Shown here piece by piece: positions 17,361-64,000 of a DNA stretch of 64,000 nucleotides. The notes under the pieces were generated by a model. The model searched no databases, had not been told where the DNA came from, and worked only from the letters and a program-made list of their open reading frames with translations. Every line of letters starts with the position of its first letter. Positions within the stretch are counted from its first letter, which is position 1. Location: assembly GCA_902787025.1 (NCBI GenBank), contig CADAER010000025.1, positions 1-64,000 on the forward strand, in the 5' to 3' direction. This DNA is from Oscillospiraceae bacterium (lineage in GTDB: Bacteria > Bacillota > Clostridia > Oscillospirales > Acutalibacteraceae). Position numbers and translations under genes: made by a program.

Positions 17361-17455
17361 ATTTAATGCCTCCTCCTTTTTTTGAAATAGATTGTTTAAA
17401 TTATAAAAACACATTTGCTGTGATTTTTAACCTAACGGAACTTTTCATTCTGCCG

Positions 17456-47141: not shown

Positions 47142-47176
47142 ATTCATAACTCCTTACACTTATTCATATTAAAACT

Positions 47177-47313: not shown

Positions 47314-48603
47314 ATGTCAACTCTGCAATATATTCATTTTTCAATAGAAATATGGGGCGCGCTCTTCTGCCTTATTTCCGTCTTTTCGGTTTTCATAACA
47401 AGGCATTTCGACCTGAAAGGCGCGCGCAAACTCATCGTGCTCCTTCTGTGCGCCATGCTCCTTATGGTAAGCGACTCGCTCGCCTGGATTTTCAGGGGCA
47501 ACATAAGCGAAGCGGGCTATTATATTGTGCGAATCTCGAATTTCTGCGCCTTCTTTTTCGGCTTTCTCACAATGCCGCTTGTCGCTGAATACATTTCGCA
47601 TCTTATCTCCAAGCGATCGGGCATCCCCGGTCTTTACTGGAAATATATCGAGTGGATTCTTTTCGCTGTCGGCACGGCGCTTCTTGTGGCGAACCTTTTC
47701 AACAAGTTCATTTACTCGTTTGACGCGAGAAACACCTATTACCGCCTGGGCTACGGTATTCTGCCCGGCTGCATAGCCTTCACGGGCATAATCATAACGC
47801 TCGGCGTTGTGCTTCAGTATATCGGATACATGAACAAATTCGAAAAAGCGGCAATGATAATGTTCCTCGTTTTACCCAATGTCGCCGTAATAATACAGAC
47901 CATGCACTACGGCGTGTCGTTTACGAATATTTCGCTTGTTCTTTCAACATTTCTGCTGTTTGTTTCATACGAGTTTGACTATATGGAATTCAACACCGAA
48001 AAGGAAAGAAAGCTCGCCGAGGAGAGAATACGCCTTATCAATCAGCAGGTTCAGCCGCATTTTATTTTCAACACTCTCTCATTGATAAGGCATCTTTGCA
48101 AAAACGCGCCCGATGAGGCGGCGGACGCCGTCAACGAGTTTTCGGGCTACCTGCGCGGCTGCACAGATTTTCTCAACGAAACGGACTGCATCCCCGCCGA
48201 GAGGGAGCTCGACCTCGTAAAACACTACATTTATCTCGAACAGAAGCGTTTCGGCAAAAGCATAACCGTTGATTATGACATTGACGACACCGGTTTTTCC
48301 GTTCCGCCCTTCGCGGTTCAGACCATAGTCGAAAACGCCATAAAGCACGGCCTTCGCTCGCAGAATATAACCAACGGTCTTATATCGCTGCGCACCCGCG
48401 CGGAAGGCGGTTATCATATAATCGAAATCGAAGACAACGGAGCGGGCTTTGACACCGACAAACTCAAAGACTCCACCCAGACAGCCCATGTAGGCATAAG
48501 AAACACAGCCGAAAGGCTCCGTCTTATGTGCGGCGGAACAATAGATGTCCACAGTGAGCCGGGAAACGGCACAAAGGTAACGATTAAAATACCGAAGGAT
48601 TAA
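47314..48603 (+). CDS. LytS-like sensor histidine kinase with multi-pass membrane sensor
   Basis: A 429-residue membrane kinase. Residues 1-225 contain about seven membrane helices (for example IEIWGALFCLISVFSVFI, SLVLSTFLLFVSYEF). The His_kinase box QQVQPHFIFNTLSLIRH puts the phospho-acceptor at His249. The ATPase part has VENAIKHGL (N-box, about 340), IEDNGAGFD (G1) and GNGTKVTI (G2). The signal sensed is unknown. It is the first gene of a four-gene operon, and the response regulator follows after 3 bp. Confidence 0.92.
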   Translation: MSTLQYIHFSIEIWGALFCLISVFSVFITRHFDLKGARKLIVLLLCAMLLMVSDSLAWIFRGNISEAGYYIVRISNFCAFFFGFLTMPLVAEYISHLISKRSGIPGLYWKYIEWILFAVGTALLVANLFNKFIYSFDARNTYYRLGYGILPGCIAFTGIIITLGVVLQYIGYMNKFEKAAMIMFLVLPNVAVIIQTMHYGVSFTNISLVLSTFLLFVSYEFDYMEFNTEKERKLAEERIRLINQQVQPHFIFNTLSLIRHLCKNAPDEAADAVNEFSGYLRGCTDFLNETDCIPAERELDLVKHYIYLEQKRFGKSITVDYDIDDTGFSVPPFAVQTIVENAIKHGLRSQNITNGLISLRTRAEGGYHIIEIEDNGAGFDTDKLKDSTQTAHVGIRNTAERLRLMCGGTIDVHSEPGNGTKVTIKIPKD

Positions 48604-48606
48604 AAG

Positions 48607-49398
48607 ATGAAAATTCTTATTGTTGACGATGAAGAATATCTGAGAGAAGACCTGCGCGACGCGCTCGAAAGAGTTTCACCCGGCAACGAATACAGTTTCG
48701 CCGCCGAATACAACGAAGCGATGAAACTTGTACGCGCCAACGCATTTGACATCGCTTTTCTGGATATTCAGATGCCCGGCAAAAACGGTCTTGAACTCGC
48801 GCAGATGATAAAAAAAGAGCGGCCTCATATGAATATCGTTATGGTAACGGCATACAGCCAGTACGCGCTTGACGCGCTCAAGCTCTTTGTCAGCGGTTAT
48901 CTTCTTAAACCCGTTATGGACAATGACCTGCGCGAAACCCTCGGCAATCTGCGCAATCCCATAGAAAAAGATACCGCCGTGAAAAGGCTCAAGGTCAGGT
49001 GCTTCGGCAACTTTGATGTTTTTGCCGACGGAAAACCCGTAGTATTCAAAAGGCAGAGAGAAAAGGAAATGCTCGCATATCTCATATGTCTCAAAGGCGC
49101 GTCGGCAAACAGGAACGAAATCTGCGCGGAGATTTTCGACGAGTCCTTCACTCCCGAAAAAGCGATACTCAATTTCAAAACAATTTTTTCTTCTCTGAAA
49201 AAAGATTTGACACGCCTCGGCTTTGATAATATACTTATCCATAACAGCAATTCCTATTCCGTAGATACAAACCTGCTGGAATGTGACTATTATGACTACC
49301 TTGTCGGAATTGCGGATGAATCCGAAAGTTATCACGGCGAGTTTATGAATCAATACAGCTGGGCCGAATCATATATCTACCTGCTTGAAAACTATTGA
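48607..49398 (+). CDS. Response regulator with SARP-type output (CheY + winged helix + BTAD-like)
   Basis: The 263-residue product has a receiver domain with acidic pocket DDEE (residues 7-10), phospho-acceptor Asp53 in AFLDIQMPG and Lys101 in YLLKPV. From about residue 130, LKVRCFGNFDVFADGKPV opens an OmpR-like winged helix of the SARP/SapR type, followed by a short BTAD-like end (NQYSWAESYIYLL). Such regulators usually bind direct heptamer repeats; a matching pair lies in the intergenic region upstream of the kinase gene. The likely target is the divergent giant surface gene (inference). Confidence 0.9.
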   Translation: MKILIVDDEEYLREDLRDALERVSPGNEYSFAAEYNEAMKLVRANAFDIAFLDIQMPGKNGLELAQMIKKERPHMNIVMVTAYSQYALDALKLFVSGYLLKPVMDNDLRETLGNLRNPIEKDTAVKRLKVRCFGNFDVFADGKPVVFKRQREKEMLAYLICLKGASANRNEICAEIFDESFTPEKAILNFKTIFSSLKKDLTRLGFDNILIHNSNSYSVDTNLLECDYYDYLVGIADESESYHGEFMNQYSWAESYIYLLENY

Positions 49399-49413: not shown

Positions 49414-49875
49414 ATGAAAAAGAAAATTCTTTGCGCCGTTCTCATAGCGCTGCTTGTTATCGGAGCTGCCGTTCTTATTATTTTCAGACAAAAAAGTCCC
49501 GACGCTTCCCCGAAAAGCGGACAGGGGCAGGCAAGCGAGGAAGCCAACTTTGATATGGAATATTCCGACCGTCTCAACGGAGTTCCCGTAACGGATGTTT
49601 CCTCAAACAGCAGCAGCATCGAGGTAACCTACGGCGACGCGGGCTTCACGAGAAAAACCCTCGGTGTTGTTGACAACAGCGACAAACGCAACGACCTTGA
49701 CGAAAACGGCGAAATGACCGTCGGCGCGTATAATGTCACCCTTCTGGGCAAAAACGGCAGTATTTATGTCGCGAAATGGAGTTACAACAGCTTCGCCTAC
49801 ACCATCTCTCTTGACGGAAACAAGGACGGCGTGAGCCGTGAAGAAATGCAGGAATACATACTGTCCACAAGATAA
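49414..49875 (+). CDS. Small membrane-anchored exported protein in the two-component operon
   Basis: I do not recognise a family with certainty. The 153-residue product has an N-terminal membrane segment (ILCAVLIALLVIGAAVLIIF) and a soluble exported part. The segment YVAKWSYNSFAYTISLDG followed by SREEMQEYI resembles the end of DUF4367-type domains. GGTGAG precedes the ATG, 15 bp after the response regulator. A role in signal perception or in the envelope stress sensed by the kinase is possible. Confidence 0.72.
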   Translation: MKKKILCAVLIALLVIGAAVLIIFRQKSPDASPKSGQGQASEEANFDMEYSDRLNGVPVTDVSSNSSSIEVTYGDAGFTRKTLGVVDNSDKRNDLDENGEMTVGAYNVTLLGKNGSIYVAKWSYNSFAYTISLDGNKDGVSREEMQEYILSTR

Positions 49876-49884
49876 GGAAATGAT

Positions 49885-50370
49885 ATGAAGAAATTATCCG
49901 CAATCCTTCTCGCGGCGGCTGTCTGCCTCTGCATATTCACCGCCTGCGGCAAAAAAGAGGAACCGCTCATTGACAGCGGTGATAAAATAGTTCCCACGCA
50001 AGCGCCCGAAATGGAAACGGCGAAAACCGAAGATGACATTTTCGGCGCCTTTGAAAGCGACGGTTATTCCGCGACAATCGAAGCGGGCGAAAGCGGTCTT
50101 GTTCTTGTTACGATAAAAGGCAAAACGGAAGAAAACAAATCTTCCGAGTGGGTGATAAACGGCTATTTCAGCGAGGGAAACAACCTCATAAACTACATAA
50201 ACGCCGTGAAATACGAAATCACTTACGACAGAACCGGAGCCGAGAAAAAACGCGAAACGGTTTATGACAACGGAGCGGGCAGAATTCTCTTTGCCTCACC
50301 GGATGATTTCATCTGGAAGAACAGTTCCGAATTCATCGAAGACGGCAGCGAATTCACAAGAACAAAATAA
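49885..50370 (+). CDS. Small lipoprotein in the two-component operon
   Basis: The 161-residue product has a lipoprotein signal peptide (KKLSAILLAAAVCLCIFTAC, lipobox FTAC, Cys21) followed by a linker and a beta-rich domain of about 115 residues of unknown function (TIEAGESGLVLVTIKG). AAGGAAATG-type spacing places it 9 bp after the preceding gene. A strong terminator follows, so it ends the operon. Confidence 0.78.
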   Translation: MKKLSAILLAAAVCLCIFTACGKKEEPLIDSGDKIVPTQAPEMETAKTEDDIFGAFESDGYSATIEAGESGLVLVTIKGKTEENKSSEWVINGYFSEGNNLINYINAVKYEITYDRTGAEKKRETVYDNGAGRILFASPDDFIWKNSSEFIEDGSEFTRTK

Positions 50371-50449: not shown

Positions 50450-53400
50450 TCAGTTCTTAGTGTATTTCAGAGTGCCCTGTTTTTCCGTTTCCGTGAGATA
50501 GCCTCCAGTTATTTCGGCACCCGGTTTCACGCTGCCGTCGGATCTCTGCGCGAAAATTGTCACCCTGTTGTCGAGCGCGCAGTTATCCGCGTATGAATAC
50601 GCCACCGTTCCCGCGTTCGGGTTGGCGGGGCGGCTGTTGTCGCTGAACATTACATATTCCCAGCGGATAACGCTCTTATTTGAGCCCGCCGCGCCCGCGA
50701 GCGAGGTGTTGTATGGAACTCTGTCGTAATTTGACATACCTATCTGACTGTAATAGCCGGTGAACGCGTCCTGCGGAAGAACGGTTGAGGCACCGTTTTT
50801 GTCGTTATAGTTTTTCGAGTAATACGGGCAGCAGTAATACATATAAATCTTGTCGCCCGCTCCGCCTGTCAGGTCTTTGTCCGAAACAGGGTAGTAATAA
50901 ACTCTGTTTTCTCCGACGAAGCCCTGCGGTCTGAACTCCTCCTGTCTTGTGATAACTATGTCGTAAACCGCTTCGGTGAGCGCTTTTTCTATCGCTTCCT
51001 GCCTCTTCGCCTCAGTAGCGCTCTCATCGATTGAAGCCCAGTCAATATGCTTCGAGCGGAAGCCCATATATATGCTCTTGCCTTCAACGCCCTTGTTGAG
51101 GTCCATATCGACATACTCGTAACAGCCCTGCGAGAGCAGGTCGCACAGCGCCGCTCTTCTGTTGTTGCCCGTGCCGATATAAAGCTTTGTGTATATGTCT
51201 CTGTCCTCTTTGTCGTATTTCAGGTGTATGAAATTGGTCTGGTTGGGGTTTCCGTAAGGCGCCGTATGGTTTTTGTCATACGCGCGGTTTGTCGCGTAGC
51301 CGGGGGCCATGGGAGAATTGTCAACCATAATTTCCGTAATCGGCGCGCCCGGATCTATGCCCGTGTTCGTCGTGTAATACAGGAAATACTTTTTGCCGTT
51401 CATCTCAATCGCCGCCTGCGTGCCTGCGCATTTATAGACAACCTTCTCGATTTTAAGCTCGTCGGGAGCGTCGGAATCGTTATACTGATAAAGCAGCACG
51501 CCCGTAATCGCGAGTTCCTTTTTATCCGTTCTCGTTACGCCTATATAAGCCGCGACGTTGTTTTCGGGAGGAGACTCGGCGGCATTGCCTTCGAACACAA
51601 TACTTCTCTTGTTATACCAGGCGTCGCTCTGATTGGCTATGGCGAAGTTCGTGTAAACAACCTCGTCAGTGCAGCCCGCGACAGCGGCGTTAAGAGCCTG
51701 ACCGTCAACCACGGCGTCAACCGCTTTAAGCACTTCATCTTTTGCGCCCGGATTTTTCTCTTTATACTGCGCTCTCGAATAGGTTCCGACCGAAAGCGCC
51801 GAAATGTATTTCGGCTTCGCGGGTTCGGGATTCCTCAGATAGATGAAGAGGTTGGTAACCTGCTTTCCGTATCCCGCTTCAGTCGGATTGGTTTCGGTAG
51901 TTTTGTTGTTGAAGAAACTGCTGTATGAGAACTCAAACGGTGTCGCGTTGTGCGGATTTTTCATTTCCTGAACGGAATGGAAATCTCCCGTCGCGTCTGT
52001 ATTGTCAAGGGTTTTGAGGCCTTTGACATTGTAGGCTATGCCGTTCGCCGTTGATTTACCCTTGATTGTTTTGTTTGTTATTACGACATCGGCGAGCTTT
52101 ATCGGCTCCTTGCCCTGCGTGTAACCCAGCACATACAGTCCCGTCGGGATATAACCCGAAACGGTAAAGCCGTATTTGACATTCTGCGCAAAGGACGAAG
52201 TTGTTGTATGACCCGCGCGCACGGCGTTTATGTCGCTTATGGAGAAGTTGACGCCGCCTCTGTCCTTGAAGGTGTTGTTTATGCCGATATATCTCGAAAT
52301 CCAGCCCGCCTTGTAACTCTGCTGTCCTATGTAACTGCACGCGATATAGTTTAACTGCTGCCCCGAAGAGCTCTTCTTCGAGAGAGTATAGGGAAGGGAA
52401 TCCGAGAACAGCGTTCCCTGATAAACAGCCGCGTCGTAAACCGCCCTGTGCGGGTTATAGGTGTAGGTGTAAACAAGATTCAACCAATAGCCGCCCGTGC
52501 CCGCGCCGAAATCGACGCTGTGATTGAGGCTTGACGCCATATTGTATGAATCCTTGCCGCCTATGACAACCGCGTGCGGTATGCTCTTCGCGTAATTCAC
52601 GAGGTTCTCGTATTTTTCGTCAAAATGCGAGTTCTTGTCGTTTTTCTTGTAGTCCCTGCCACCTATGAAGAAGAAGCCGGAGAGATATTTCGTGCCCGAG
52701 GTGTATTGCGTTTCGGGTTCGAAGTAGAAATACGAGCAGCCGTGTCCCGCCATCGCTCCGACCGTCCTGACCGTGTAGCCCGAGTAGATTCCGTTGGGCG
52801 TGGTTTCTTCGGGTGTATCCTCGAGTTTTATGTTGAAGTCATAGGGATAGTCCGCTCCGAAGAGGGAGACGGGCTCCCAGCCGGGCTTGACCTTGTCGAA
52901 TTTGTTAACTACATGAAGTCCGTCGGCAAGTATCGGCGGTCCCGCGTTTTCATCCTTCGAGTAATACAGAGCGTCCGCCTGTGGCCTTGTCTTGTCATCG
53001 CCCACGGCGACATACGCGCCCACATTTTCCACAAACGAGTAGAGCATACTTCCGCGGTATGTAGGAGTGCCTTCGGGCTTGCCCGCGTAAGGACTTACCC
53101 TGATATCCCTGACGGCGTTGTTCTTGTCGGATGTAATTGCGTAGCCGACAAAGGTGGCGTAGGAGCTGCCGGGCGAAAGGTTTGCGTCGAGAATATAGAA
53201 CTTTTTATCCTTCGCGAGTATTTTCGCCTTTGCCTCCGCTTCGGTCTTGCCGACCGAAACAATAAGGTCTTCGATATAACTGTTGCTGCCTTCTTTTTTC
53301 TCGCCCTCCGAATCGGGTTCGGGGGATGCGTTTGTTATGGAATAATCGGTGCGGTAATGGATATAACAGCCGCGGACGCTGTCTTTTTCACAGAAGGCGT

Positions 53401-55297
53401 TTGTGTTCGCGACATTTCTCTCGCCGAAGAATTTAATACTGTCATAGCCGTTGAGCTTCGCGCTGTTTCCGTAAATAATATTGAATATTCTGCCGTCCGA
53501 GTCCGCGCGTATCGGGCTTCCCACTCTCGTGTCGCTCGTGCAGGCGATAAGGCACCATTTATACTGCTTGGAGCAGTTGAGGTCGCCTACCTTGTTCTCA
53601 CTGTTGCGAACGGATTTATACCGAACGTTTATGGTTCCGTTTGCGGTGTCGGGAGCGTCAAAAATATATTCGGGTTTTACGGTGTGGTCTCGGTCCTTGT
53701 CTATTTCCTGAACCTTTTCGATAATCCATTTCACGAGCGCCCAGATAAGCTGGAACGCGATTACAAGCACGGTCACGACAAGAAGGCCGATGCCCATCCA
53801 CGAAACAATCGAAAGCGCCGAAATGCAGAACGCGCTGAACGCCGTTTCAGCCGCGGCGCAGGCAACGCAGATTTTAAATGTAACCTCTGCCACGCCGACA
53901 AGCACGAAAGCCGCGCCTACGGCGATATCTATCCATTTGAGGACCATCTGTATGTCTTCGTCGATTTTGTCGAGACTGCTCGTCACGCCGAGAGACAGTT
54001 CCGCCTTCTGTTTTCTGACCGCGTCGGATGTGAACGCTATCTGCGCGTTTTCGATATCCTCGCCGTCTATATCCCAGAGCGAGACGGAAACTCCGTCGTT
54101 GTAGTTCTTTATTTCTTTTTTCGCGTTTTCGAGCTGCTCTTCGTAATCGGTAAGCTTCGTGTTTTCACCGAGATTCGCTATGGCGCTGACGAAGCCCGTG
54201 CGCGAAAGAATTTCAACCTGATTGTCGGTCATAGCCTCAACCACCGGGTAAAGCTGCATAAGGTCAACAGTCTCGGAGGTTTTTCTGCCGATGCTCAACA
54301 GCCAGTCGCCGAGCTTCATTCTGTCGTTGAAATCATACTGATTGAGCGTGTTGTATGCGGCGATGAAGAGCAGGTCGGTATCTTTTTCCTCAAGGTTTTC
54401 CATCTGTTCAACGGCGTTTTCCATTGAGTCGAACATTTCATTTTCGGTAATGTTTTTCTCGTTGTATCTCGCCGCCGCGTTTTCATAATATGTGGTGAAA
54501 TCCTGCAGGGCAGAAAAGAGTTTTTTCGCAAGGTCGTTATACTGCCTGTGAAGGTCGTCCTCTTCGTCTTCGGTAAGCCCCGCGTCAAAATCATCCCAGA
54601 GAGAACTCAGGCGTATTCTCTGCGCCCAGTTCGCCGTAAATGTGGACTGCGTGTCCATATCATAGTTGTTCTCATATGGCGCTATGCCGATATTGAGAAG
54701 ACCGAGCACATTGTTTACCGCGCCCGCGCTCGCTTTGACAAGCATTTTTACGAAGAAGTCAATATCCGCCTCGCCGTTCAGAATGTAGTCGCCGAGTTTC
54801 GTCTTGTTCTTGTCACCGATGTCGAACAGGTTGAGTCCCTTGTATGCTTCAAGCGCCTTGGGGCTTCCCATTTCATAATTCGCCGCGAACTCGTTTGCGG
54901 TTGAGAACAGCACCTGCGCCGTTCCCTGCTGCTGTGACGCGAGATAATTCTGAATACCCTTGTAGTCATACATCTGGTATCCCGTATCCATAGCCATCAT
55001 ACGGATATCCGTGAGCGCCTTGTCTTTATCCGTCGTTGTCTTGTAGCCGATATAGACGCTCTCGCCTGTGCCTGTGCCCGAGTTGAGGTCGGGTGAAAGG
55101 AAGGTGTAGCCGATGCTGTTGAAATACGCCTGCGCGTCGGAACCAGAGCCCTGATACATTTTTATATCCTGAACATACTGAACGGGAACGGTGGATTCCG
55201 CGAATGTTCCGAGTGTGCCCGCAAGAGCCGTGATAAGACCTACCGCTATGCAGAAAGCGGAGAACAGCAGACCTTTTCTTTTAATTTGCTGTTTCAT
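50450..55297 (-). CDS. Large exported protein with repeated MABP/beta-prism-like domains and central membrane helices
   Basis: The 1615-residue product starts at ATG 55297 (AAGGAGG upstream; the GTG at 55309 lies inside that site). The signal sequence ends near GTFAES (about residue 35). Residues about 38-110 are an MABP-like module (YVQDIKMYQG, SPDLNSGTGTG, YIGYKTTTDKDKALTDI). A helical region runs to about 450 and ends with AFTSDAVRK, the counterpart of the TSDALR motif in the smaller paralogs. Hydrophobic helices span about 450-525. The rest is a chain of related beta modules (NAGPPILADGLHV, NTGIDPGAPITEIMV, YVDMDLNKGVEGKSIYMGF). There is no C-terminal anchor. The assignment to the MABP fold rests on the DLNxG ... 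IYxGYK ... ITDI pattern. Its start overlaps the end of the beta-helix gene by 17 bp. Confidence 0.82.
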   Translation of the reverse strand: MKQQIKRKGLLFSAFCIAVGLITALAGTLGTFAESTVPVQYVQDIKMYQGSGSDAQAYFNSIGYTFLSPDLNSGTGTGESVYIGYKTTTDKDKALTDIRMMAMDTGYQMYDYKGIQNYLASQQQGTAQVLFSTANEFAANYEMGSPKALEAYKGLNLFDIGDKNKTKLGDYILNGEADIDFFVKMLVKASAGAVNNVLGLLNIGIAPYENNYDMDTQSTFTANWAQRIRLSSLWDDFDAGLTEDEEDDLHRQYNDLAKKLFSALQDFTTYYENAAARYNEKNITENEMFDSMENAVEQMENLEEKDTDLLFIAAYNTLNQYDFNDRMKLGDWLLSIGRKTSETVDLMQLYPVVEAMTDNQVEILSRTGFVSAIANLGENTKLTDYEEQLENAKKEIKNYNDGVSVSLWDIDGEDIENAQIAFTSDAVRKQKAELSLGVTSSLDKIDEDIQMVLKWIDIAVGAAFVLVGVAEVTFKICVACAAAETAFSAFCISALSIVSWMGIGLLVVTVLVIAFQLIWALVKWIIEKVQEIDKDRDHTVKPEYIFDAPDTANGTINVRYKSVRNSENKVGDLNCSKQYKWCLIACTSDTRVGSPIRADSDGRIFNIIYGNSAKLNGYDSIKFFGERNVANTNAFCEKDSVRGCYIHYRTDYSITNASPEPDSEGEKKEGSNSYIEDLIVSVGKTEAEAKAKILAKDKKFYILDANLSPGSSYATFVGYAITSDKNNAVRDIRVSPYAGKPEGTPTYRGSMLYSFVENVGAYVAVGDDKTRPQADALYYSKDENAGPPILADGLHVVNKFDKVKPGWEPVSLFGADYPYDFNIKLEDTPEETTPNGIYSGYTVRTVGAMAGHGCSYFYFEPETQYTSGTKYLSGFFFIGGRDYKKNDKNSHFDEKYENLVNYAKSIPHAVVIGGKDSYNMASSLNHSVDFGAGTGGYWLNLVYTYTYNPHRAVYDAAVYQGTLFSDSLPYTLSKKSSSGQQLNYIACSYIGQQSYKAGWISRYIGINNTFKDRGGVNFSISDINAVRAGHTTTSSFAQNVKYGFTVSGYIPTGLYVLGYTQGKEPIKLADVVITNKTIKGKSTANGIAYNVKGLKTLDNTDATGDFHSVQEMKNPHNATPFEFSYSSFFNNKTTETNPTEAGYGKQVTNLFIYLRNPEPAKPKYISALSVGTYSRAQYKEKNPGAKDEVLKAVDAVVDGQALNAAVAGCTDEVVYTNFAIANQSDAWYNKRSIVFEGNAAESPPENNVAAYIGVTRTDKKELAITGVLLYQYNDSDAPDELKIEKVVYKCAGTQAAIEMNGKKYFLYYTTNTGIDPGAPITEIMVDNSPMAPGYATNRAYDKNHTAPYGNPNQTNFIHLKYDKEDRDIYTKLYIGTGNNRRAALCDLLSQGCYEYVDMDLNKGVEGKSIYMGFRSKHIDWASIDESATEAKRQEAIEKALTEAVYDIVITRQEEFRPQGFVGENRVYYYPVSDKDLTGGAGDKIYMYYCCPYYSKNYNDKNGASTVLPQDAFTGYYSQIGMSNYDRVPYNTSLAGAAGSNKSVIRWEYVMFSDNSRPANPNAGTVAYSYADNCALDNRVTIFAQRSDGSVKPGAEITGGYLTETEKQGTLKYTKN

Positions 55298-57650
55298 TTT
55301 TACGGGCACCTCCTTTTTTCTTTTTGTAAATCAACGCGGCGGCAACAGCCGCGACAGCCGCCGCGGGTATGCCGACAAGCACAACCATCCTGTGTCCTCC
55401 GAAAAGAGTCGCCGTCACTACGGGAGTGTCAAGTTCCTGTTCGGAGACGAATTCCATCGTGCCGTTTTCGGGGTGGAAATACCGCAGCTGGTATTCGGTG
55501 ATGTGCTTAGAAACGGAAACCGCTCCTCTGTCGCCGCGGTAAAAATATATTTCCGAGCCTTCGTACAGACCGCATGACTCAAAGAACGTGTCTTTCTGTG
55601 AGCTGTTTGTGTCGTCAAGGCACAGATTCGGTCCGTTGTAAGACGCTTTGTTGTCTTTGATAATCATTTTGCCGCCTAGCGAAATCGTGTTTTCCTCATA
55701 AACATAAACCGCGCCGCAGCTTCCCGAACGGTTGCCCGTTATGGTGTCGTCCTGAAGAACAACGCCGTTGCGCCCGACAAACACGGCTCCGCCGTAGGTG
55801 CCGGCTTTGTTTTCATACATACCGCAGTTTTCGACAAGAATCGGTTTTGTGTCTGCGCCAATGCCGTTGATATAGAGCGCTCCTCCGTTCTCTCCCGTTA
55901 CACTGCGTCTGAAAGTGCAGTTCGTGATTTTATATCTCGACTTTCCTTTAAATGCGAAGATATAGGCCGCGCCGCCGAAATCTTCGCAGACATTTCCGGT
56001 AAACAGGCAGTTGTTTATTTCGCAGTCAATCGGTCCGTCGGCGTCGTAGTCGCTGAGGTAAATGGCGCCTCCGCTGTCCTCGCTGTAACAATCCTGGAAT
56101 ATTACATTGTCAAGTCTTATTGTGCATGATTTCTTGGGGGCGGCAATTCCTCCGCCGTTGCACTCGTCATAACTGTCAATGGTCTGGCAGAAGAAGATGC
56201 GGCAGTCTTTCATATTGAGCTTCGAACCGTCTTTGAGAAGGATTGCTCCGCCGTCTTCGTCCGATGTGCATTTGTAAATCGTGCCGCCGAACATATTGAA
56301 TGTTGCGTTCGGTCTCACGTGAACGCCGCCCGCTCCGTTTTCGCTCGCGCCGCCCGTGATAACTCCGCCTAAAATGCCGTCGTAGCCCTTGCATTCGGGG
56401 TTGCTGTCCTTTATGGTGAAAACCGCTCCGTCGCCTACATAGATAACCTCGCCGTCATCCGTCTGTTTGCCGTTCCTCGCGCGGTTTATATAATGCCCGT
56501 TCAGGTCAATCGTAACTGTCGAATTGTTCGGAACAATAAGACGCTCGTCCTTATCGTAGTTTGAGCCGAGCACAATCTCGACGCCGGAGCCAGATGCCGC
56601 GTATGCTTTCGCTGCGTTCCAGGCCGCTTCCGCCGAGTTGTGTTTTTCCATCTTCGTCATTCTGCCGCCGCTGAAAACCTGAACCACCGACTCGGCAGTG
56701 TTCTTTATGATTATTTCGCCGTTCGACCCGAGAATAAGGGCGTCTCCCTCCTTCGCCGGCTTGAAAACAGCGGTGGGAGTGCCTGTGTTGTATGTATTGT
56801 ATTTCATAACGGCAGCCGGGTTGTTGCCCTCGCCCGAAAGCGAAATCTTTTCGTTGCAGGTGAGCTTGCCCGAAAGCGTTATGTATCTCGCGAGACTCGA
56901 ATGAATATCGTCGTTCTGACCGTCAACAAGGTTGCCCGAAACAGTCGGCGAACCGCTGATATTGAAATCGCCCGCGTTGAATATTCCGCCGCCGTAACCC
57001 GTCGCGGCGTTTTCCTGAATTTTTACATTGTCGATAATTGTCTTTTTGATATTGCCTACGGATTTTATATATGAACCTTCCTCAATTGTGACGGTGCAGC
57101 CCGTCGCGTTGTATATGCCGCCGCCGTTGCGCGAGCGGTTGTGATGTATGACGCCGCCCTTTACAGTCAGCGTGCCGTATGAGGAATCCGATGAACCGTT
57201 GTAGATTCCTCCGCCGCAGCCGTAAGTGTTGTCGGTCGCCTTGTTGTTGTAAATCGTGCCGCCCTCTATGGTAGTGTTGCCGTAGTTGCAGATTCCGCCG
57301 CCGTTGAGCGCCGCTCCGCCCCTGATTTCGCCCGCGTTTGTGCCGGATGTGTCTTTGAGAACAAATGTCGCGCCCGGCATAACGGTTATGACGCTGCCGC
57401 CCTCGACGCATACGGCAAGACCTCTGTCAAGCGTTTTGCCGTTCAGGTCGAAGGTTACTGTTTTTCCTTCGGGGACGACAAGACCGTGAGTGATCGTCAG
57501 ACTCATTGACAGTCTTATGTCGCCGCCCTTATTGAAATTGTTTATGAGAGCGGTTTCCGTTCCCGCCTGGATAACCGCGGAGACTCCGACGGACATTGCC
57601 GTCAGAAGAATAATCGCCGAGAGCAGAAACGGAATTATTCTGTGTTTCAA
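55281..57650 (-). CDS. Exported right-handed beta-helix protein with C-terminal membrane anchor
   Basis: The product has 789 residues from the TTG at 57650, which has GAGGTG at 6-7 nt and opens a good signal peptide (RIIPFLLSAIILLTAMSVGV). A TTG 12 codons upstream lacks a site. Most of the protein consists of beta-helix coils with GGGI/GGA turns (NGGGICNYGN, YGCGGGIYNG, DSGGAIYLSDYD), as in pectate-lyase-like or Pmp-type proteins; no catalytic residues can be assigned. A membrane helix (VVLVGIPAAAVAAVAAALI) and KKKKGG end the protein, with no LPXTG motif. It lies between two beta-prism genes in the operon, so it probably works with them. Confidence 0.83.
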   Translation of the reverse strand: MKHRIIPFLLSAIILLTAMSVGVSAVIQAGTETALINNFNKGGDIRLSMSLTITHGLVVPEGKTVTFDLNGKTLDRGLAVCVEGGSVITVMPGATFVLKDTSGTNAGEIRGGAALNGGGICNYGNTTIEGGTIYNNKATDNTYGCGGGIYNGSSDSSYGTLTVKGGVIHHNRSRNGGGIYNATGCTVTIEEGSYIKSVGNIKKTIIDNVKIQENAATGYGGGIFNAGDFNISGSPTVSGNLVDGQNDDIHSSLARYITLSGKLTCNEKISLSGEGNNPAAVMKYNTYNTGTPTAVFKPAKEGDALILGSNGEIIIKNTAESVVQVFSGGRMTKMEKHNSAEAAWNAAKAYAASGSGVEIVLGSNYDKDERLIVPNNSTVTIDLNGHYINRARNGKQTDDGEVIYVGDGAVFTIKDSNPECKGYDGILGGVITGGASENGAGGVHVRPNATFNMFGGTIYKCTSDEDGGAILLKDGSKLNMKDCRIFFCQTIDSYDECNGGGIAAPKKSCTIRLDNVIFQDCYSEDSGGAIYLSDYDADGPIDCEINNCLFTGNVCEDFGGAAYIFAFKGKSRYKITNCTFRRSVTGENGGALYINGIGADTKPILVENCGMYENKAGTYGGAVFVGRNGVVLQDDTITGNRSGSCGAVYVYEENTISLGGKMIIKDNKASYNGPNLCLDDTNSSQKDTFFESCGLYEGSEIYFYRGDRGAVSVSKHITEYQLRYFHPENGTMEFVSEQELDTPVVTATLFGGHRMVVLVGIPAAAVAAVAAALIYKKKKGGARKNETAN

Positions 57651-57704
57651 CTGATACACCTCGCTTAGAAGTGAGATTGTTTTCAATCCGCGGGAAAAAG
57701 CGGA

Positions 57705-60155
57705 TTACGCGGCAGCTGCTTCTCTCTTTTTCTTTCTCGCCGCTTTTGTTACAAAAGCTGAGATAACAGCGCCCGCCACAATGCCGCAGGAGCCTGCCGC
57801 AGCAAGCGTGCCTGTGGAGAAATTCGACGCCGCCGTGTCTGGAGCCGAGGAGCCGCCCTCGGTTTTGAAATAGATCATCACGCTCGGCGCGTCATTGTTC
57901 CAGTCGTAAAGCCCGCTGTTGAGGTTGAAAGCGGAGCCCGAGCCGAACAGATGAACACCCGTTGTGTATCCGGGAGGAACGTCTGTGTCGTCAACCTTGA
58001 CAAGAAGAGTGTCCGCGAGAATCGGGGCGAATGACTGACTCTTCTGCGCGTAGAGCGCCAGCCATTGTTTGCCGACATCGCCGTTCATATCGGCGAAAAT
58101 GCCGGATGTGCCGTAGTATTCCGCGCTCTCCTGTCTGTTGCACTCAACCGCCGTGTAGTAGACGGAAAGATTCTTGATAACTATTTTTTCGCCTTTTTCG
58201 TTGTAGGCGGTGATATCCTTTTCCTCAACCATATATTTCGGAATCGGCGTGAACTCAACCTTATAGTAATTCACGAGGTCCTGATATGTCAGGTATGTTG
58301 ACAGCGCCGCGAGGGCGACCATCGCTATTGAGAAGCCGATTGACAGATATCTGCACAGCTTGCCCTGCTCGGCGATTCTCGCCACTCTGCCTTCATACTG
58401 CCTGGCTTTGTTGCCCATTGTGCGTATGTAATTGCTTCTGAGGTCAATCAGGTAGTCCTGCAGGTTCATATACTCCTGACTTGACATCGTTTTGCCTATT
58501 TCCGATACCATCGCGTAGCCCGCTTTTTCACAGCACCACTTGGTAACTTCAATGTCCGCCCGGATGGCGTTTGCCATTGCCTGAAATTCTCGGTATTTGT
58601 TTACAAGTCCCATATAAACGGAAAGTGAAATGCCGAGACCCGCCGCGGAAGCGATTGTGGCGCTTATTGAAAGAAGAGTCCACCAGTTCAGCGGGAAGGC
58701 GGAAGGATTGTCGCTGTTGAGATTCTTCTGGGCGAACTCCGCGCGAATGGCGTCGCTCGTCATTGCTACGCCGCCTTTCTGGTAAAGGTCTCTGTTCACG
58801 CCGTCATAAACGGATATTTCGTCGATTTCCTCCATTACCTCGTCTTCATACGCATCCGAAATAGTTCCCGCGATAACGACAAGGTCGGAGAGCGAAACAA
58901 AGTCGAGACCCGCTCTCTGTCCGTCCGACAGAGAAGCGACAAGCGGATAAAGCTTTGTTATATCTTCCTCAATATCTTCATAAGGCTGCGTGAAGAAATC
59001 GAAAAGAGTGCCGTCGCCGTAGCCGACATTTTCAAGATATTCTTTTACAATAATATCGGTAAGGCTGTTCGCGAACGCCTCGCCGTTGAGTTCCGCCTCG
59101 GCGGTTATCCTTGCGTAAGCGTCGAGCTGTTTTTCATCCGCCGTAGTTATGTCGAAGTTTTCGAGAATTTCCTTGTCCTCGTCAGACAGAATCTCGAATT
59201 TTTCAATATCCTCTTCGGCCTCGCCCGCTTTAAGAAGCTGCTCCCTGAATGTCTCCCAAAGAGCGAGAATCTTTTTCGCGTCGTCCTGATACATAAGGGC
59301 GAGTTCCTTCTCCGCATCTGTGGGGAGCATATCCATAGCGTCGATAAGATCTTCATAGGTTATTGAAGTGAAGCGGTCAACCCAGGAATCATCTTCCGTA
59401 TCCGTCGCCTTGACGATAAGCCTCTCAATAAGCAGAATCGCGTTGCCGTTGCCCTGGGCGAGTATTGTGAGAATATCCGTGTGCTTTCTCTTTTCCTTTT
59501 TGGGAAGAGCGCTGTATTTTTTGGTGCTAAGTTCAACAGCGTCGGTTCCTTTTTTCTCGGATGCCGAAAGAAGGTTGTATTCGCTTAAACCCATTTCATA
59601 TTTCGTTTCGTTGAGAAGCAGGTCGCCGAGACCTCTGTCGCTGCAGTCATCGTCGGTGAATTTATTGAGCAGGTCGTGAATATACCGCGCCCTCGCCTTG
59701 TTTTCTTCATTTGAGGAGTTGTAATTCGCCCTGTATTCCTTTATCGCGACAAGGAAGTTGTCAACAAAGGGGATAATCTGGCTTTTCATCTGCCCTTCCA
59801 TAAGAGCGTCATACGCCGCGGCGGAATATCCGCCTTTCATATTCATAAGAGCAAGGTCGGTTATCGCCTCGCTTCTCTTTGTCGTGGTTTTGTAGCCCAT
59901 AAGGACGGCTTTGTCGCCCTTTGAGCCCCAGCCGCCGCCCGCGTCCTGATTGAGGTCCACGGGATTGCCGTTCTCATCTTTCAGGATTATATATCCTTTG
60001 AGCGATTCAAGCGCCTTTTCGGCGTTTTCTCCCATGCCGATTTTAACCTCGCTTATGTATTCGGGAACAGAGTCCGCGAACACCTGAGCGGGCATAACGG
60101 CGACAATAAGAACCGCCAGCAATATCGATGTGATTATAAAAGATAATCTTTTCAT
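57705..60155 (-). CDS. Exported membrane protein of the MABP/beta-prism-like paralog family (third copy)
   Basis: The product has 816 residues; AAGGGA lies 8 nt before the ATG. Residues 1-27 are a signal peptide ending QVFADS. Residues 29-105 are an MABP-like module: YISEVKIGMG, PVDLNQDAGGG, LMGYKTTTKR, AITDLALMNMKGGYS. A helical region (110-450) ends with QKGGVAMTSDAIR. Membrane helices lie at about 498-522 and 612-635. A second beta domain follows (YYKVEFTPIP, FADMNGDVGKQWLALYAQK, HLFGSGSAFNLNS). A last membrane helix (about 775-800) ends in KAARKKKREAAAA. Topology is probably outside-in-outside-in. It is the intact reference copy for the family. Function unknown. Confidence 0.83.
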   Translation of the reverse strand: MKRLSFIITSILLAVLIVAVMPAQVFADSVPEYISEVKIGMGENAEKALESLKGYIILKDENGNPVDLNQDAGGGWGSKGDKAVLMGYKTTTKRSEAITDLALMNMKGGYSAAAYDALMEGQMKSQIIPFVDNFLVAIKEYRANYNSSNEENKARARYIHDLLNKFTDDDCSDRGLGDLLLNETKYEMGLSEYNLLSASEKKGTDAVELSTKKYSALPKKEKRKHTDILTILAQGNGNAILLIERLIVKATDTEDDSWVDRFTSITYEDLIDAMDMLPTDAEKELALMYQDDAKKILALWETFREQLLKAGEAEEDIEKFEILSDEDKEILENFDITTADEKQLDAYARITAEAELNGEAFANSLTDIIVKEYLENVGYGDGTLFDFFTQPYEDIEEDITKLYPLVASLSDGQRAGLDFVSLSDLVVIAGTISDAYEDEVMEEIDEISVYDGVNRDLYQKGGVAMTSDAIRAEFAQKNLNSDNPSAFPLNWWTLLSISATIASAAGLGISLSVYMGLVNKYREFQAMANAIRADIEVTKWCCEKAGYAMVSEIGKTMSSQEYMNLQDYLIDLRSNYIRTMGNKARQYEGRVARIAEQGKLCRYLSIGFSIAMVALAALSTYLTYQDLVNYYKVEFTPIPKYMVEEKDITAYNEKGEKIVIKNLSVYYTAVECNRQESAEYYGTSGIFADMNGDVGKQWLALYAQKSQSFAPILADTLLVKVDDTDVPPGYTTGVHLFGSGSAFNLNSGLYDWNNDAPSVMIYFKTEGGSSAPDTAASNFSTGTLAAAGSCGIVAGAVISAFVTKAARKKKREAAAA

Positions 60156-62559
60156 AACAAATCCCTTTGAAATTCTGAATTACGCCGCCGCTTTTCCGCT
60201 TTTCTTTCTGCCGACTGCGGCTGCCGCGATGCCTGAAATCAACGCTCCGAATGGCTAAATTGCCCGCGGTGAAGTTCGAGCCTGACGCGCCGGCGGATGA
60301 GGAGTCTGTCTTGTAATAAACCATAACGGATGGCGCGTCCTTGTTCCAGTCGTAAATCTCGCTGTTGAGGTTGAACGCCGAGCCCGAGCCGAACATATGA
60401 ATACCGGTCGTGTAGCCCGCGGGAATATCCTTGTCGTCAACCTTTACAAGCAGTGATTTCGCAAGTATGGGCGCCTTGTCTTCGTTTTTCTCGGCGTAGA
60501 GGGCGAGCCACTGCCTGCCGATATCGCCGTTCATATCCGCGCAGGTGCCGAGCATGCCGAACAGTTCGTCGTCAGCTGTTCTGTTGGTTTCAACAGCCTT
60601 GTAATAAGCCGCCTGATTCTTGAAAACCGTCTTGTTGCCGTATGCATCATACGCGTAAATGTCTTTTTCATCAATAATATAGTGAGGAATCGGCGTGAAT
60701 TCAACCTTGTAGTATGCAACCATTTCTCTGTATGTCAGGAAAGTCGCCAGCGCCGTCAGAAGAACCATCGCCACCGTGAAACTTATCAGAATTTTATTGC
60801 AGAAAGCCGATTTGCCCATCAGCACCCGTTCGCTTTCCTTGTATTGCGCGCTTTTTGGAATCAGGAGGTCATAAGCTCTTTTGGTGGGCCTGGTAAAATT
60901 ATTCAGCTCGGCTTCCCATTGCAGCGTTTCATTGTTTATATAGCGTCCGAAGTTGCTGACTATAAATTTGTGCTCCTCGGTAACCTGCTTCGAAGCGGCT
61001 CTGAGCGCCTTCGAGGTAATACCCTTGAGAACAGCCGAACCGACAAATCCTACCAGCGACACGCCGGCGAAAACATAAAGCACAGCGGGGCCCGCGCCGA
61101 GAGTAAAGGAATCGGGAATCTCTTCCTTCAAAGCCGCTTTCTTGCGCAGGGCGTCGCTTGTGAGCGCTACGCCGCCCTTCTGAAATACCGCGCGGTCAAC
61201 TCCCTTGTAGAGAGATTCGCTGTCGATTTTGTCAAGCGCGCTTTTGTCGAACGCATCCTTGTCAATCTCAGCCATAAGAACAAGGTCTTTCAATGAAACA
61301 AAGTCGAGACCCGCTCTCTGACCGTCGCTCAGAGCGGCGACTACCGGGTAAAGCTCGGTTAAATCGTCGAAATCGCGCGAGAAGAAATCGAGCAGAGTGC
61401 CGTCGCCGTATTCACAGGCTTTGAGATATTCGCAGACAGCTACCGTCGATGCGCTGTCAACGAATTTTATCTGCTTTGATGTGTATTCGGTATAAGCATT
61501 CGCGAGGTCGATATAGTCATCCATATCGGCGCTGTCGGATTTGAAACTCTCTATTCTTTCGGTAAGGGCTTCAATTTCGGCATTGCTTAATTTTTCTACC
61601 GTTTCAGCCGCTTTGTCCTGCGATTTTATTTCATCCTGGAAATCCTTGATTTTGACAAGAAGTCTTTTCGCGTCGTCTTCATAGAGCCTGTCCAATTCGT
61701 TTTCCGCTTCGGTCGGAAGCATACTCATCATACCCGCGTATGCTTTAACCAGAGAATTATAGGACATATCCGAAATGCGTTCAATCCAGGAGTCTTCTTC
61801 GGTGTCGGATGCCCTGACCAGAAGATTCTCGATAGCTATTGTGCTCTCGCCGTTTGACTGCGCGAGTATCGTGACTATGTCGGCGTGCTTTTTCTTTTCC
61901 GCGTCCGAAAGCTTCGCGTAAGCCTTGTCGCTTTCCTTGAGGATGTCGGTCTTTTCCTTTTCCTCGGCGGAAAGAGCGTTGTATGCTTTCAGACCCATTT
62001 CGTATTTCGTTTCGTTCATGAGCAGTTCACCGAGAGCCGCTCCGCCGCAGTCATCATCCGTGAACTTGTTGAGAGCAAGACGGACATACTGCGCCCTGTG
62101 TCTGTTCAGAGCGATTCCGCCGGCCAGGTTTTCCCTGTATTCTTTTATTGTCGTAATAAAACTGTCAACAAGCGGAATAATCTGACTTTTGATGTTTGAC
62201 TCCAGAAGAGCATCGTATTCCTGAACGGAGTAGCCGCCTTTCATATTCATAAGAGCGAGGTCTGTTATCGCTTCGTTTTTGTCTGTTGTGGTTTTATAGC
62301 CGAGATATACTACCTTGTCGCCCTTTGAGCCCCAGCCGCCACCCGCGTTGTCGTTGAGATCAACGGGGTTGCCCTTGTCATCAGACAGGATTTTATAACC
62401 CTTGAGCGCGGCTTCGGCGTCTTCCTTCTCTTTGCCCATGCCGATTTTTACTTCGCTTATGTATTCGGGAAGAGCATCGGCGAACACCTGCGCGGGCATA
62501 ACCGCCGCCGTAAGCAGTGCGAGAATTATCGCGGTGATTATAATCGTGATTTTTTTCAT
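60043..62559 (-). CDS. MABP/beta-prism-like membrane protein (second copy), frameshifted at its C-terminus
   Basis: Same layout as its neighbours: signal peptide ending QVFADA, MABP-like module (YISEVKIGMGK, YLGYKTTTDK, AITDLALMNMKGGYS), helical region, QKGGVALTSDALR, two membrane helices, and the second beta domain with FGSGSAFNLNS. GGGAGG lies 8 nt before the ATG. After SNFTAGNLA (near 60262) the frame breaks. The first copy has AGGAGLAFGALVS there, while here FGALISGIAAAAVGRKKSG continues in another frame to a stop at 60180-60182. Aligned to the first copy, 23 nt are missing. As written, the frame instead runs 113 bp into the start of the third copy, replacing the membrane anchor with a basic tail. 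Residues before the break look intact. Confidence 0.8.
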   Translation of the reverse strand: MKKITIIITAIILALLTAAVMPAQVFADALPEYISEVKIGMGKEKEDAEAALKGYKILSDDKGNPVDLNDNAGGGWGSKGDKVVYLGYKTTTDKNEAITDLALMNMKGGYSVQEYDALLESNIKSQIIPLVDSFITTIKEYRENLAGGIALNRHRAQYVRLALNKFTDDDCGGAALGELLMNETKYEMGLKAYNALSAEEKEKTDILKESDKAYAKLSDAEKKKHADIVTILAQSNGESTIAIENLLVRASDTEEDSWIERISDMSYNSLVKAYAGMMSMLPTEAENELDRLYEDDAKRLLVKIKDFQDEIKSQDKAAETVEKLSNAEIEALTERIESFKSDSADMDDYIDLANAYTEYTSKQIKFVDSASTVAVCEYLKACEYGDGTLLDFFSRDFDDLTELYPVVAALSDGQRAGLDFVSLKDLVLMAEIDKDAFDKSALDKIDSESLYKGVDRAVFQKGGVALTSDALRKKAALKEEIPDSFTLGAGPAVLYVFAGVSLVGFVGSAVLKGITSKALRAASKQVTEEHKFIVSNFGRYINNETLQWEAELNNFTRPTKRAYDLLIPKSAQYKESERVLMGKSAFCNKILISFTVAMVLLTALATFLTYREMVAYYKVEFTPIPHYIIDEKDIYAYDAYGNKTVFKNQAAYYKAVETNRTADDELFGMLGTCADMNGDIGRQWLALYAEKNEDKAPILAKSLLVKVDDKDIPAGYTTGIHMFGSGSAFNLNSEIYDWNKDAPSVMVYYKTDSSSAGASGSNFTAGNLAIRSVDFRHRGSRSRQKEKRKSGGVIQNFKGICYEKIIFYNHIDIAGGSYCRRYARSGVRGLCSRIHKRG

Positions 62560-62589
62560 ATTACTTGTCCTCCCTGAGGATTCCTTTGC

Positions 62590-64000
62590 TTACGCTGCCG
62601 CCTTTTTGCTCTTTTTCTTATCCGCCGCCGTTACTGCAATCGCGGAAACAAGCGCTCCGAAAGCAAGTCCGGCGCCGCCCGCGAGAGCGAGATTACCCGC
62701 GGTGAAGTTTGAACCGGATGTGCTCGCCGCCGAGGCGGTTTCGGTTTTGAAATAAACCATAACGCTCGGCGCGTCCTTGTTCCAGTCGTAAAGCTCGCTG
62801 TTGAGGTTAAACGCCGAACCCGAGCCGAACATATGAATACCCGTAGTATAGCCCGCGGGAAGGTTTGTGTCATTTACTTTTACAATAAGCGAGTCAGCGA
62901 GTATGGGCGCGGCAACATCGCTCGTCTGCGCGTAAAGGGCGAGCCACTGTCTGCCGACATCGCCGTTCATATCGGCGCAGTTGCCGAGAGTGCCGTAAAA
63001 CTCATCTGCCGGGCCTCTGTTGCACCTGACCGCTTTATAATACGCCGCCTGATTCTTTATTACCTCTTTTTCGCCTCTTTCATTAAACACGGTAATATCA
63101 GCCTCATCCACCATATAGTGGGGAATCGGAGTAAAGTCAACTTTATAGTAATTAACCATATCGCGGTAGGCAAGATATGTCGTGATGAGGGCGATAATGA
63201 CAGTCGCAAAGGTCAGACCGGCAGAAAGATAGTTGAAATAGCGCGACTGAGCGGCCGCCGTCTTTTTGAAGCTGTCAAGATACTGCTGATAGGTTCCGCC
63301 TTTGTAGAGGTGATCCGAAAGCCCGGGGAAATCCTTCACAACCAGTCTTGCGTTCGGCACATCGTTTACCCAGTTGGTGAGAGATGAAATTCTCAGATAG
63401 TTGCGGACTTTTACCGTAACATTTGCGAGAAGAGTTATTGCCATTGCCGAGGCTGAAATGCCTGTGATAACAACAAATATCCATGAAAGCGGACTTAACA
63501 GACTGCCGGCGTCTTCCTGCTGAATAAGAGCTTCCGAACGCAGCGCGTCGCTTGTGAGCGCGACGCCGCCCTTCTGATAAATACCGCGGTCAACGCCTTC
63601 ATATATCGAAACGGGGTCTGAAACATCGCCCGTCATTTTGCAGTAGGTCGATTCGTCCGTGAGGGCAATTGCGAAGAGTTCCCTGAAATTGATGAATTCG
63701 ATACCCGCTTTCTGACCGTCCGTAAGAGAAGCGACGAGGGGATATATCGATGTGATATCTTCCTCAACCTCCTCAACGGGGCGCATAAAGAAATCGAGGA
63801 GAGTTCCCTCGCCGTATTCGATTGTTCCGAGATAATCGTAAATCACGGCGATTTCCGCCGCCTGACTTGCCTCGGCCAATTCGGACTGCGCTTTTGCGTA
63901 GTCTTCAAAAACCTGCGCCGCGTCTTCAACCGATTCGCAGTTTTCTATATCGGCGTATGCCTGAACTGCCGACTCATATTCGTCATAGTCGAATTTTTCG
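62590..64000 (-). CDS. MABP/beta-prism-like membrane protein (first copy), N-terminus beyond the window
   Basis: The C-terminal 469 residues of the family. The frame stays open to the right edge (EKFDYDEYESAVQAYADI), so the apparent TTG start at 63879 is internal. Visible: the end of the helical region (YGEGTLLDFFMRPVEE, SLTDGQKAGIEFINF), QKGGVALTSDALR, two membrane helices, the second beta domain (FTPIPHYMVDEADIT, NCADMNGDVGRQWLALYAQ, HMFGSGSAFNLNS), and a C-terminal membrane helix (ALAGGAGLAFGALVSAIAV) ending DKKKSKKAAA. The second copy follows after 30 bp. The operon promoter lies beyond the window. Confidence 0.82.
   Translation of the reverse strand, partial: EKFDYDEYESAVQAYADIENCESVEDAAQVFEDYAKAQSELAEASQAAEIAVIYDYLGTIEYGEGTLLDFFMRPVEEVEEDITSIYPLVASLTDGQKAGIEFINFRELFAIALTDESTYCKMTGDVSDPVSIYEGVDRGIYQKGGVALTSDALRSEALIQQEDAGSLLSPLSWIFVVITGISASAMAITLLANVTVKVRNYLRISSLTNWVNDVPNARLVVKDFPGLSDHLYKGGTYQQYLDSFKKTAAAQSRYFNYLSAGLTFATVIIALITTYLAYRDMVNYYKVDFTPIPHYMVDEADITVFNERGEKEVIKNQAAYYKAVRCNRGPADEFYGTLGNCADMNGDVGRQWLALYAQTSDVAAPILADSLIVKVNDTNLPAGYTTGIHMFGSGSAFNLNSELYDWNKDAPSVMVYFKTETASAASTSGSNFTAGNLALAGGAGLAFGALVSAIAVTAADKKKSKKAAA

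Follow-up and report, generated by a model that had tools for sequence, protein, structure and literature searches.

We describe a family of membrane proteins with predicted signal peptides, encoded by a gene row of an Oscillospiraceae bacterium, together with an intramembrane protease that is linked to them. The row lies on the minus strand at positions 50450-64000 of a 64,000-nt stretch of contig CADAER010000025.1, referred to here as the window. In the open reading frame listing of the window it comprises five genes, encoding three copies of a protein that we call S (S3, S2 and S1), a large paralogue (B) and a β-helix-like protein (H). S and H proteins share a C-terminal tag, in which the motif S-x-F-x-x-G is followed by the last membrane helix and then by Lys/Arg. 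A subfamily of PrsW proteases (c5) and a polytopic partner (c4) are linked to the S and H proteins. The balance of the evidence leans towards several of the S and H proteins being cut at this tag by a PrsW-family protease that is encoded elsewhere in the genome.

The genes of the row are the following; labels of the form L001 denote fetched DNA stretches, G with a number denotes genomes, and C25, C4, C5 and C46 are contigs of the source genome.

50450-55309, minus strand: B, 1619 aa, large paralogue, no C-terminal tag
55281-57686, minus strand: H, 801 aa, β-helix-like, tag-like tail at about 55305-55415
57705-60155, minus strand: S3, 816 aa, the copy studied in most depth
60043-62559, minus strand: S2, 838-aa frame that slips directly after the tag motif, the C-terminal helix being lost in the assembly
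62590-64000 (window end), minus strand: S1, 786 aa in full with its start at contig position 64950, strict tag GSNFTAG
L001, 5029-7383: S0, fourth S copy, 784 aa, between the window and the contig end

A C-terminal tag common to S and H proteins

The tag is present on two unrelated protein types. Upstream of it, S and H fall into separate sequence clusters and have different predicted folds, and a motif, helix and basic tail on otherwise unrelated proteins are what is expected of a CTERM-type signal. We counted the strict form, SxFxxG, in anchored proteins de-duplicated at 70% and compared the counts with shuffles. It occurs in 54 of 74 S proteins (shuffle mean 2.25), in 36 of 50 H proteins (0.85) and in one of 94 other exported anchored proteins (0.57). 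A looser pattern beside the anchor, S-x-[FLV]-[STGNA]-x-G, was counted in 73 stretches, with genes open at the 3' end left out; it is found in 106/133 S, 44/58 H and 1/20 B proteins and in 2/390 others. Within the row, S3, S1 and S0 carry the strict motif, S2 slips right after it, and B has none.

The tags of S and H in one stretch tend to be of the same type, with F in both (33 stretches) or in neither (3), and two stretches mixed (Fisher 0.0012). This suggests, weakly, that the tag type may co-vary between the two proteins; the non-F stretches are few and some are related. Since the motif served to pick the rows of our H-tag alignment, invariant columns there do not count as evidence, whereas the motif counts do. 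In the source genome, the profile made from H tags finds two H tails (E 4.8e-13 and 1.4e-6) and then an LPXTG-type tail (6e-5), which outranks the S tail; as a genome-wide finder this profile was rejected as too unspecific. No LPXTG precedes the helix among the S and H tails listed. Elsewhere in the source genome (L155, contig C46, 5280-11792), three adjacent proteins end in LP(E/Q)TG, a helix and a basic tail, and the genome therefore seems to use LPXTG-type tails besides the S-x-F tag.

A PrsW-family protease and its partner accompany the tagged proteins

The c5 protein is a PrsW-family intramembrane protease (PF13367, 72.6 bits vs 23.5). Residues E71, E72, E108, H136 and H172 are invariant in 12 sequences, and the catalytic residues are presumably among these Glu and His. 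Its partner c4 is a conserved polytopic protein, paired with c5, that has no Pfam match.

The c5 profile matches 40 of 46 S-bearing genomes; ten of the 46 had supplied rows to the profile, and the independent figure is 30/36. The same 40 genomes contain c4. As controls we used 147 genomes of the order, in which S is sporadic (3 S-bearing and 144 S-negative genomes). Here c5 scores 382 and 362 bits in two of the three genomes with S, and 231 and 119 bits in two of the 144 without it. For c4, the corresponding counts are two S-bearing genomes and one S-negative genome (122 bits), another S-negative genome reaching 33 bits in one search only. The pooled Fisher test gives p 3.6e-32 with relatedness ignored; the two S-bearing genomes of the order sample other than the source genome, whose matches lie at identical contig positions, appear to be among the 46 and were not pooled with the controls. 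The protease thus has the distribution expected of a dedicated CTERM protease (40/46 against 2/144), with six misses. Among the genomes without the c5 subfamily, G150 and G183 have another PrsW, and G159, G160, G162 and G185 give no PF13367 match; G149 likewise gives none, yet holds a c5-subfamily fragment at a contig end.

The association is also one of position. For proteases scoring at least 250 bits, c4 lies within 200 bp of 52/54, and at least one of S, B and H within 7 kb of 46/54. In the protease-centred stretches alone, several of which are short contigs, S, B or H is found within 7 kb in 36/44. Such linkage could arise if the protease, c4 and S/H merely travelled together as a mobile or regulatory unit, with no contact between protease and tag. 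The sporadic spread of S is compatible with this, as is the recurrence nearby of two-component, SpoIIE and STAS genes. We consider it very improbable: in the source genome the protease is on C4 and the row on C25, therefore the link is genome-wide and not only local, and a similar tag occurs near distant protease relatives in stretches where S and B were not seen (S was not searched for in the class sample described below).

Distant relatives lie in ECF-sigma operons

Distant c4-PrsW pairs adjoin genes for extracytoplasmic function (ECF) sigma factors in L154 (source genome), L146 and L148, with confirmation by Pfam in L154 and L146. As a test sample, we took 12 PrsW relatives, besides that of the source genome, from 391 genomes of the class and fetched their surroundings. 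An ECF sigma gene is present in six of the 12, all six confirmed by Pfam, and it is followed there, in this order, by genes for a two-helix small protein, for a polytopic protein that takes the place of c4, and for PrsW. The c4 profile does not match the polytopic protein at this place in the six stretches. Judging from their position, the two-helix small proteins would be anti-sigma factors.

In six of the eight ECF-sigma operons with such a protein (L202, L203, L207, L209, L210 and L154), the small protein has A/G-S-I-F before its second helix, followed in L202, L203 and L210 by Gly at the strict spacing; S-x-F is absent from the small protein in the other two (L206 and L146). No such two-helix small protein was seen in L148. 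In L200, the place of the small protein is taken by a β-helix protein that bears PASIFGEG and a helix, and no S-x-F tag was found near PrsW in L199, L201, L204, L205 and L208, the protease of L208 running off its contig. L084 and L085 connect the ECF-sigma type and S-type loci: each of these stretches combines PrsW, c4 and S with an ECF sigma gene and a two-helix small protein whose tag is of the non-F type.

A second two-helix small protein follows PrsW in six stretches and has GS.(L/M)L.E(D/E)AGGYV, or a close variant, before its last helix:

L202, 5996-6319: second small protein
L203, 10466-10756: second small protein
L205, 10458-10784: second small protein
L209, 9258-9605: second small protein
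L210, 10356-10679: second small protein
L154, 9881-10198: second small protein

These operons bear on a different explanation, in which the C-terminal segment is a mere stop-transfer anchor with a helix-packing motif and PrsW has a purely regulatory role, in that it cuts a signalling protein, anti-sigma-like or other, by which these genes are controlled. The distant relatives in ECF-sigma operons, the ECF sigma genes beside PrsW, c4 and S in L084 and L085, and the invariant Gly 791 and 795 in the last helix of S, as in packed helices, all agree with it. We nevertheless regard it as unlikely, since it leaves unexplained why S-x-F precedes the helix in unrelated H and two-helix small proteins, and why the tag is a conserved island (mean column identity 0.71 in S) after a variable linker (0.46). 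Moreover, most of the close proteases were seen without an adjacent ECF sigma gene.

If instead the tag is a protease signal, it probably began as a site-1 signal of an anti-sigma-like protein and would have spread later to surface proteins, because distant PrsW relatives in ECF-sigma operons adjoin small proteins with a similar tag. In Bacillus subtilis, PrsW cleaves RsiW at an Ala-Ser bond, and the A-S present in many tags would be in keeping with this. As the site-1 protease of RsiW, PrsW belongs to a class of enzymes that cut an anti-sigma factor in its extracytoplasmic part (PMC3498285, in part).

S proteins are predicted to contain a split β-prism

The layout of S was analyzed in S3:

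60075-60155, minus strand: residues 1-27, predicted signal peptide (hydropathy, sequence)
59826-60071, minus strand: residues 29-110, predicted first sheet of a split MABP prism, DLN at 67-69
58731-59825, minus strand: residues 111-475, helical domain, predicted extracellular, ending in TSDA(I/L)R
58296-58685, minus strand: residues 491-620, two membrane helices around the least conserved loop
57855-58262, minus strand: residues 632-767, predicted second and third sheets of the split prism, DMN at 689-691 and NLN at 744-746
57708-57830, minus strand: residues 776-816, C-terminal tag A-SNFSTG, membrane helix and Lys/Arg tail

In most S proteins listed, hydropathy marks a signal peptide and, besides the two central helices, a helix at the C-terminus. 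The two β modules each have a mean column identity of 0.74, and the helical domain has 0.63. By far the least conserved region is the loop that joins the central helices (residues 516-599), at 0.22; its length differs among the paralogues. The predicted topology places the first sheet and the helical domain outside, the variable loop between the two helices in the cytoplasm, sheets two and three outside again, then the tag and the last helix, and the Lys tail inside. Charge (K/R vs D/E) backs this topology weakly: 13 vs 10 in the loop, 37 vs 81 in the helical part and 6 vs 1 in the tail.

The structure model, the fold search and the motifs indicate that S very probably contains a single three-sheet MABP-type β-prism, split by the helical and membrane-spanning insert. 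The predicted structure shows the three-sheet prism of the MABP/MACPF-type fold, and its nearest matches by structure comparison are the prisms of MACPF pore formers. MABP-type prisms have one DLN-type metal motif per sheet (PMC10344926, in part), and the Asn of all three motifs is present in 98/98 S proteins; a metal site in the split prism is accordingly predicted from the model. The likeness to the prisms of MACPF proteins (Mpf2Ba1, 8b6u/8b6v; Photorhabdus, 2qp2) and of human MVB12B (3tow) lies in these two features. In contrast to those contiguous domains, the S prism is split between residues 110 and 632, by about 520 residues with the helical domain and two membrane helices. The guess of a MABP β-prism, made in a sequence-only reading of this DNA, was right, and its proposal of two prism domains flanking the membrane helices does not apply to S: two separate prisms were rejected on the fold search and the three-motif pattern.

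Plain Foldseek with S gave no match at E<=1e-3, and a PDB sequence search returned three matches, all at chance level. Profile comparison of the β modules of S revealed no significant internal repeat, the one strong row being the overlap common to two cut pieces; support for three sheets therefore comes from the model and the motifs. PF10240 has no match in any control genome.

B holds several predicted prisms, which are contiguous in the model and by fold search, and has four DLN-type motifs by pattern:

52709-53290, minus strand: B residues 674-867, predicted contiguous MABP prism
50537-51205, minus strand: B residues 1369-1591, predicted contiguous MABP prism

The best plain Foldseek hits of B are Mpf2Ba1 chains (E 0.0099 and 0.034). 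The fold-search matches to prisms of MACPF pore formers raise the possibility that S and B are weapons, that is, prism-bearing pore formers or adhesins directed against rival cells or the host, which PrsW releases. Other systems have toxins with a fused PrsW domain (PMC3482391, in part), and the varying number of tandem S copies and the poorly conserved central loop would also suit such a role. We hold this to be quite improbable. Pfam finds no MACPF domain, and no MACPF-domain row of the fold search fits the helical part of S, such a lack being no exclusion; a pore reading of that part was rejected, the fold search having given background-level rows only.

Most H proteins listed have no membrane segment besides the signal peptide and tag. 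The H of the window has only a weak adhesin match in Pfam/NCBIfam, 5/7 other H proteins exceed the Pfam cut-off for Chlam_PMP repeats, and two more tagged proteins beside the protease pass Pfam Beta_helix (L151, L200).

Gene row, spread and neighbouring genes

The architecture and the gene row are far beyond chance, as seen from the homologues, the further copies in the source genome and the tandem S pairs. At E<=1e-3, a protein database search gave 847 homologues among 7993 scored candidates; the source genome has 14 matches to S3 across contigs C25, C4 and C5. In related stretches, 36 of 46 tandem S pairs are spaced -20 to 54 bp apart (overlapping stretches kept in the count).

The sequence-only reading had described a one-strand row of at least five genes, to which S0 now adds a member beyond the window (the contig extends to 67425). 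It had also recognized the common architecture of B and the S copies: DLN...GYKTTT...A(I/L)TD, a helical part, TSDA(L/I/V)R, central membrane helices and a later β part. The close packing that it noted stands, its exact range of -17 to 54 bp hinging on the start codons chosen. With our starts, B and H overlap by 29 bp and the gaps are 18 bp (H-S3), 30 bp (S2-S1) and 77 bp (S1-S0). The Lys-rich C-terminal anchor ascribed to the smaller copies is present in S3, S1 and S0; in S2 the slip removes the helix, and B has none. Because the frame slips near the S2 C-terminus, S2 as listed overruns 113 bp into S3; its unshifted stop, judged by eye, is 24 bp ahead of S3. The slip (60043-60300) is either a sequencing or assembly error or a real lesion, and the paralogues are intact.

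Members of the S/B family occur widely in gut Clostridia. Scanning GTDB genomes yielded 134 encoding stretches, of which 80 were kept, corresponding to 69 distinct loci. The loci are mostly in metagenome-assembled genomes, many with ruminant names, and the nearest relatives of the source bacterium are rumen dwellers. The few not labelled as metagenome-assembled include Eubacterium xylanophilum ATCC 35991 and Lachnospiraceae P6B14. S and B have no Pfam or NCBIfam family above cut-off, and PADLOC gives no match for S3, B, H, PrsW or c4. In the open-licence literature, we found no description of S, B or H proteins or of a PrsW-linked C-terminal tag.

Gene calling on the 73 stretches revealed a recurrent set: H upstream of B, tandem S, a histidine kinase and response regulator, two small proteins, SpoIIE, STAS and the c4-c5 pair. 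Whether the β-helix gene is a constant companion was a question of the sequence-only reading: of 42 distinct B genes, 39 have H in the fetched stretch and 34 have it immediately upstream, five of the 42 having no upstream gene inside the stretch. Next to the row, the window contains:

47314-48603, plus strand: membrane histidine kinase, of a family found beside the clusters in 17/73 stretches
48607-49398, plus strand: response regulator, of a family recurring in 16/73 stretches
49414-50370, plus strand: two small proteins of 153 and 161 aa, of families found in 10/73 and 5/73 stretches

Around c4-PrsW pairs (L017, 7447-10912, and others), a STAS protein, an acyltransferase and a HAMP-bearing SpoIIE-type phosphatase recur, perhaps as a partner-switching regulator.

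Elsewhere in the window, four very large surface-type genes occupy 2-22719 on the minus strand. Three of them were scanned (3362-11110 was left out) and contain Listeria-Bacteroides repeats, MucBP- or Muc_B2-like matches or dockerin. The proteins at 11868-17414 and 42327-47147 have a similar unanchored C-terminal end, SRGNSW..CSSATVT.TIY..AELA.AQ, and proteins in L021 and L039 have a related one; it is perhaps another export or attachment domain.

Discussion

The tag and protease resemble the GlyGly-CTERM/rhombosortase system in the tripartite C-terminal tag, the sporadic spread and the co-distributed, often adjacent intramembrane protease (PMC3237569, in part). They differ from it in the motif, in a protease of the PrsW rather than the rhomboid type, and in the second polytopic partner. 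MYXO-CTERM tags are cut by myxosortase, a glutamic intramembrane protease of the CPBP family (PMC11980579, in part), to which PrsW is distantly related (PMC3482391, in part). In our case, the cut is proposed, the motif has no Cys, PrsW takes the place of CPBP, and the hosts are Clostridia instead of Myxococcota. With the PrsW of B. subtilis that acts on RsiW, c5 shares the family and, through its distant relatives, the setting in ECF-sigma operons; unlike it, c5 is linked mainly to surface proteins, and its 24.3 bits against the equivalog NF033739 (RsiW protease) are far below the cut-off of 225. For the PrsW-fused polymorphic toxins, it has been proposed that PrsW processes exported proteins (PMC3482391, in part); there the protease is fused to its cargo, whereas here the tagged candidates are separate and in trans.

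Because the tripartite tag, sporadic spread, co-distribution and adjacency match those of GlyGly-CTERM/rhombosortase, and the CPBP relative myxosortase cuts tags, we infer a cut by PrsW and c4. The last helix would keep the exported protein in the membrane until this cut at the tag. For H, the cut would release or re-anchor the protein. For S, it would be a maturation step, since the central helices would keep S in the membrane. The outcome may be release, transfer to another anchor, or mere turnover. Our likeliest guess for a ligand of the exposed prisms and helical domains is a lipid, by analogy with known MABP domains, which bind acidic lipids (PMC6753088, in part).

Several observations weigh against a cut at the tag. 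Six of the 46 S-bearing genomes (G150, G159, G160, G162, G183 and G185) lack the protease and c4, and H-type tag tails at E<=1e-7 are nonetheless present in G150, G162, G183 and G185. Conversely, the S-negative genome G139 has a c4-PrsW pair with no tag nearby, the 260-bit protease of L199 has no tag within 6.5 kb, and S, B and H are all missing within 7 kb of the protease in 8/44 of the stretches centred on it. In the source genome itself, the protease on C4 is away from the cluster on C25, and the H tail of the window deviates twice from the motif (Thr for Ser, His for Gly). The H-tag profile reaches S tails weakly (one, E 0.07), and the predicted local distance difference test score of the S3 model is below 50 at the tag and the second central helix. 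In addition, GlyGly-CTERM proteins have no other membrane segment, and S has two central helices.

In a fuller proposal, which we advance tentatively and place somewhat short of an even chance, PrsW and its polytopic partner would constitute a dedicated sorting or shedding enzyme for S-x-F-x-x-G proteins of gut Clostridia, beside the LPXTG pathway. A stress-signalling protease would have turned sortase-like through transfer of an anti-sigma site-1 tag, and its main clients would be proteins with a metal-pinned β-prism closed around a membrane-spanning insert.

In myxobacteria and several proteobacterial genera, the sorting of surface proteins by a tag is known to involve intramembrane proteases. 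The tag and the linked protease are a probable addition to C-terminal sorting or shedding systems; if so, a PrsW-type pair in anaerobic gut Clostridia adds a protease family to this list, and the relatives in ECF-sigma operons show where such systems can originate. The tag also offers a substrate rule, open to testing, for PrsW enzymes of a subfamily that has no known function. MABP prisms, which occur in ESCRT-I and perforin-2, here form the predicted core of a large family of bacterial surface proteins, for which cutting at the tag would be another way for such bacteria to place or release proteins at their surface.

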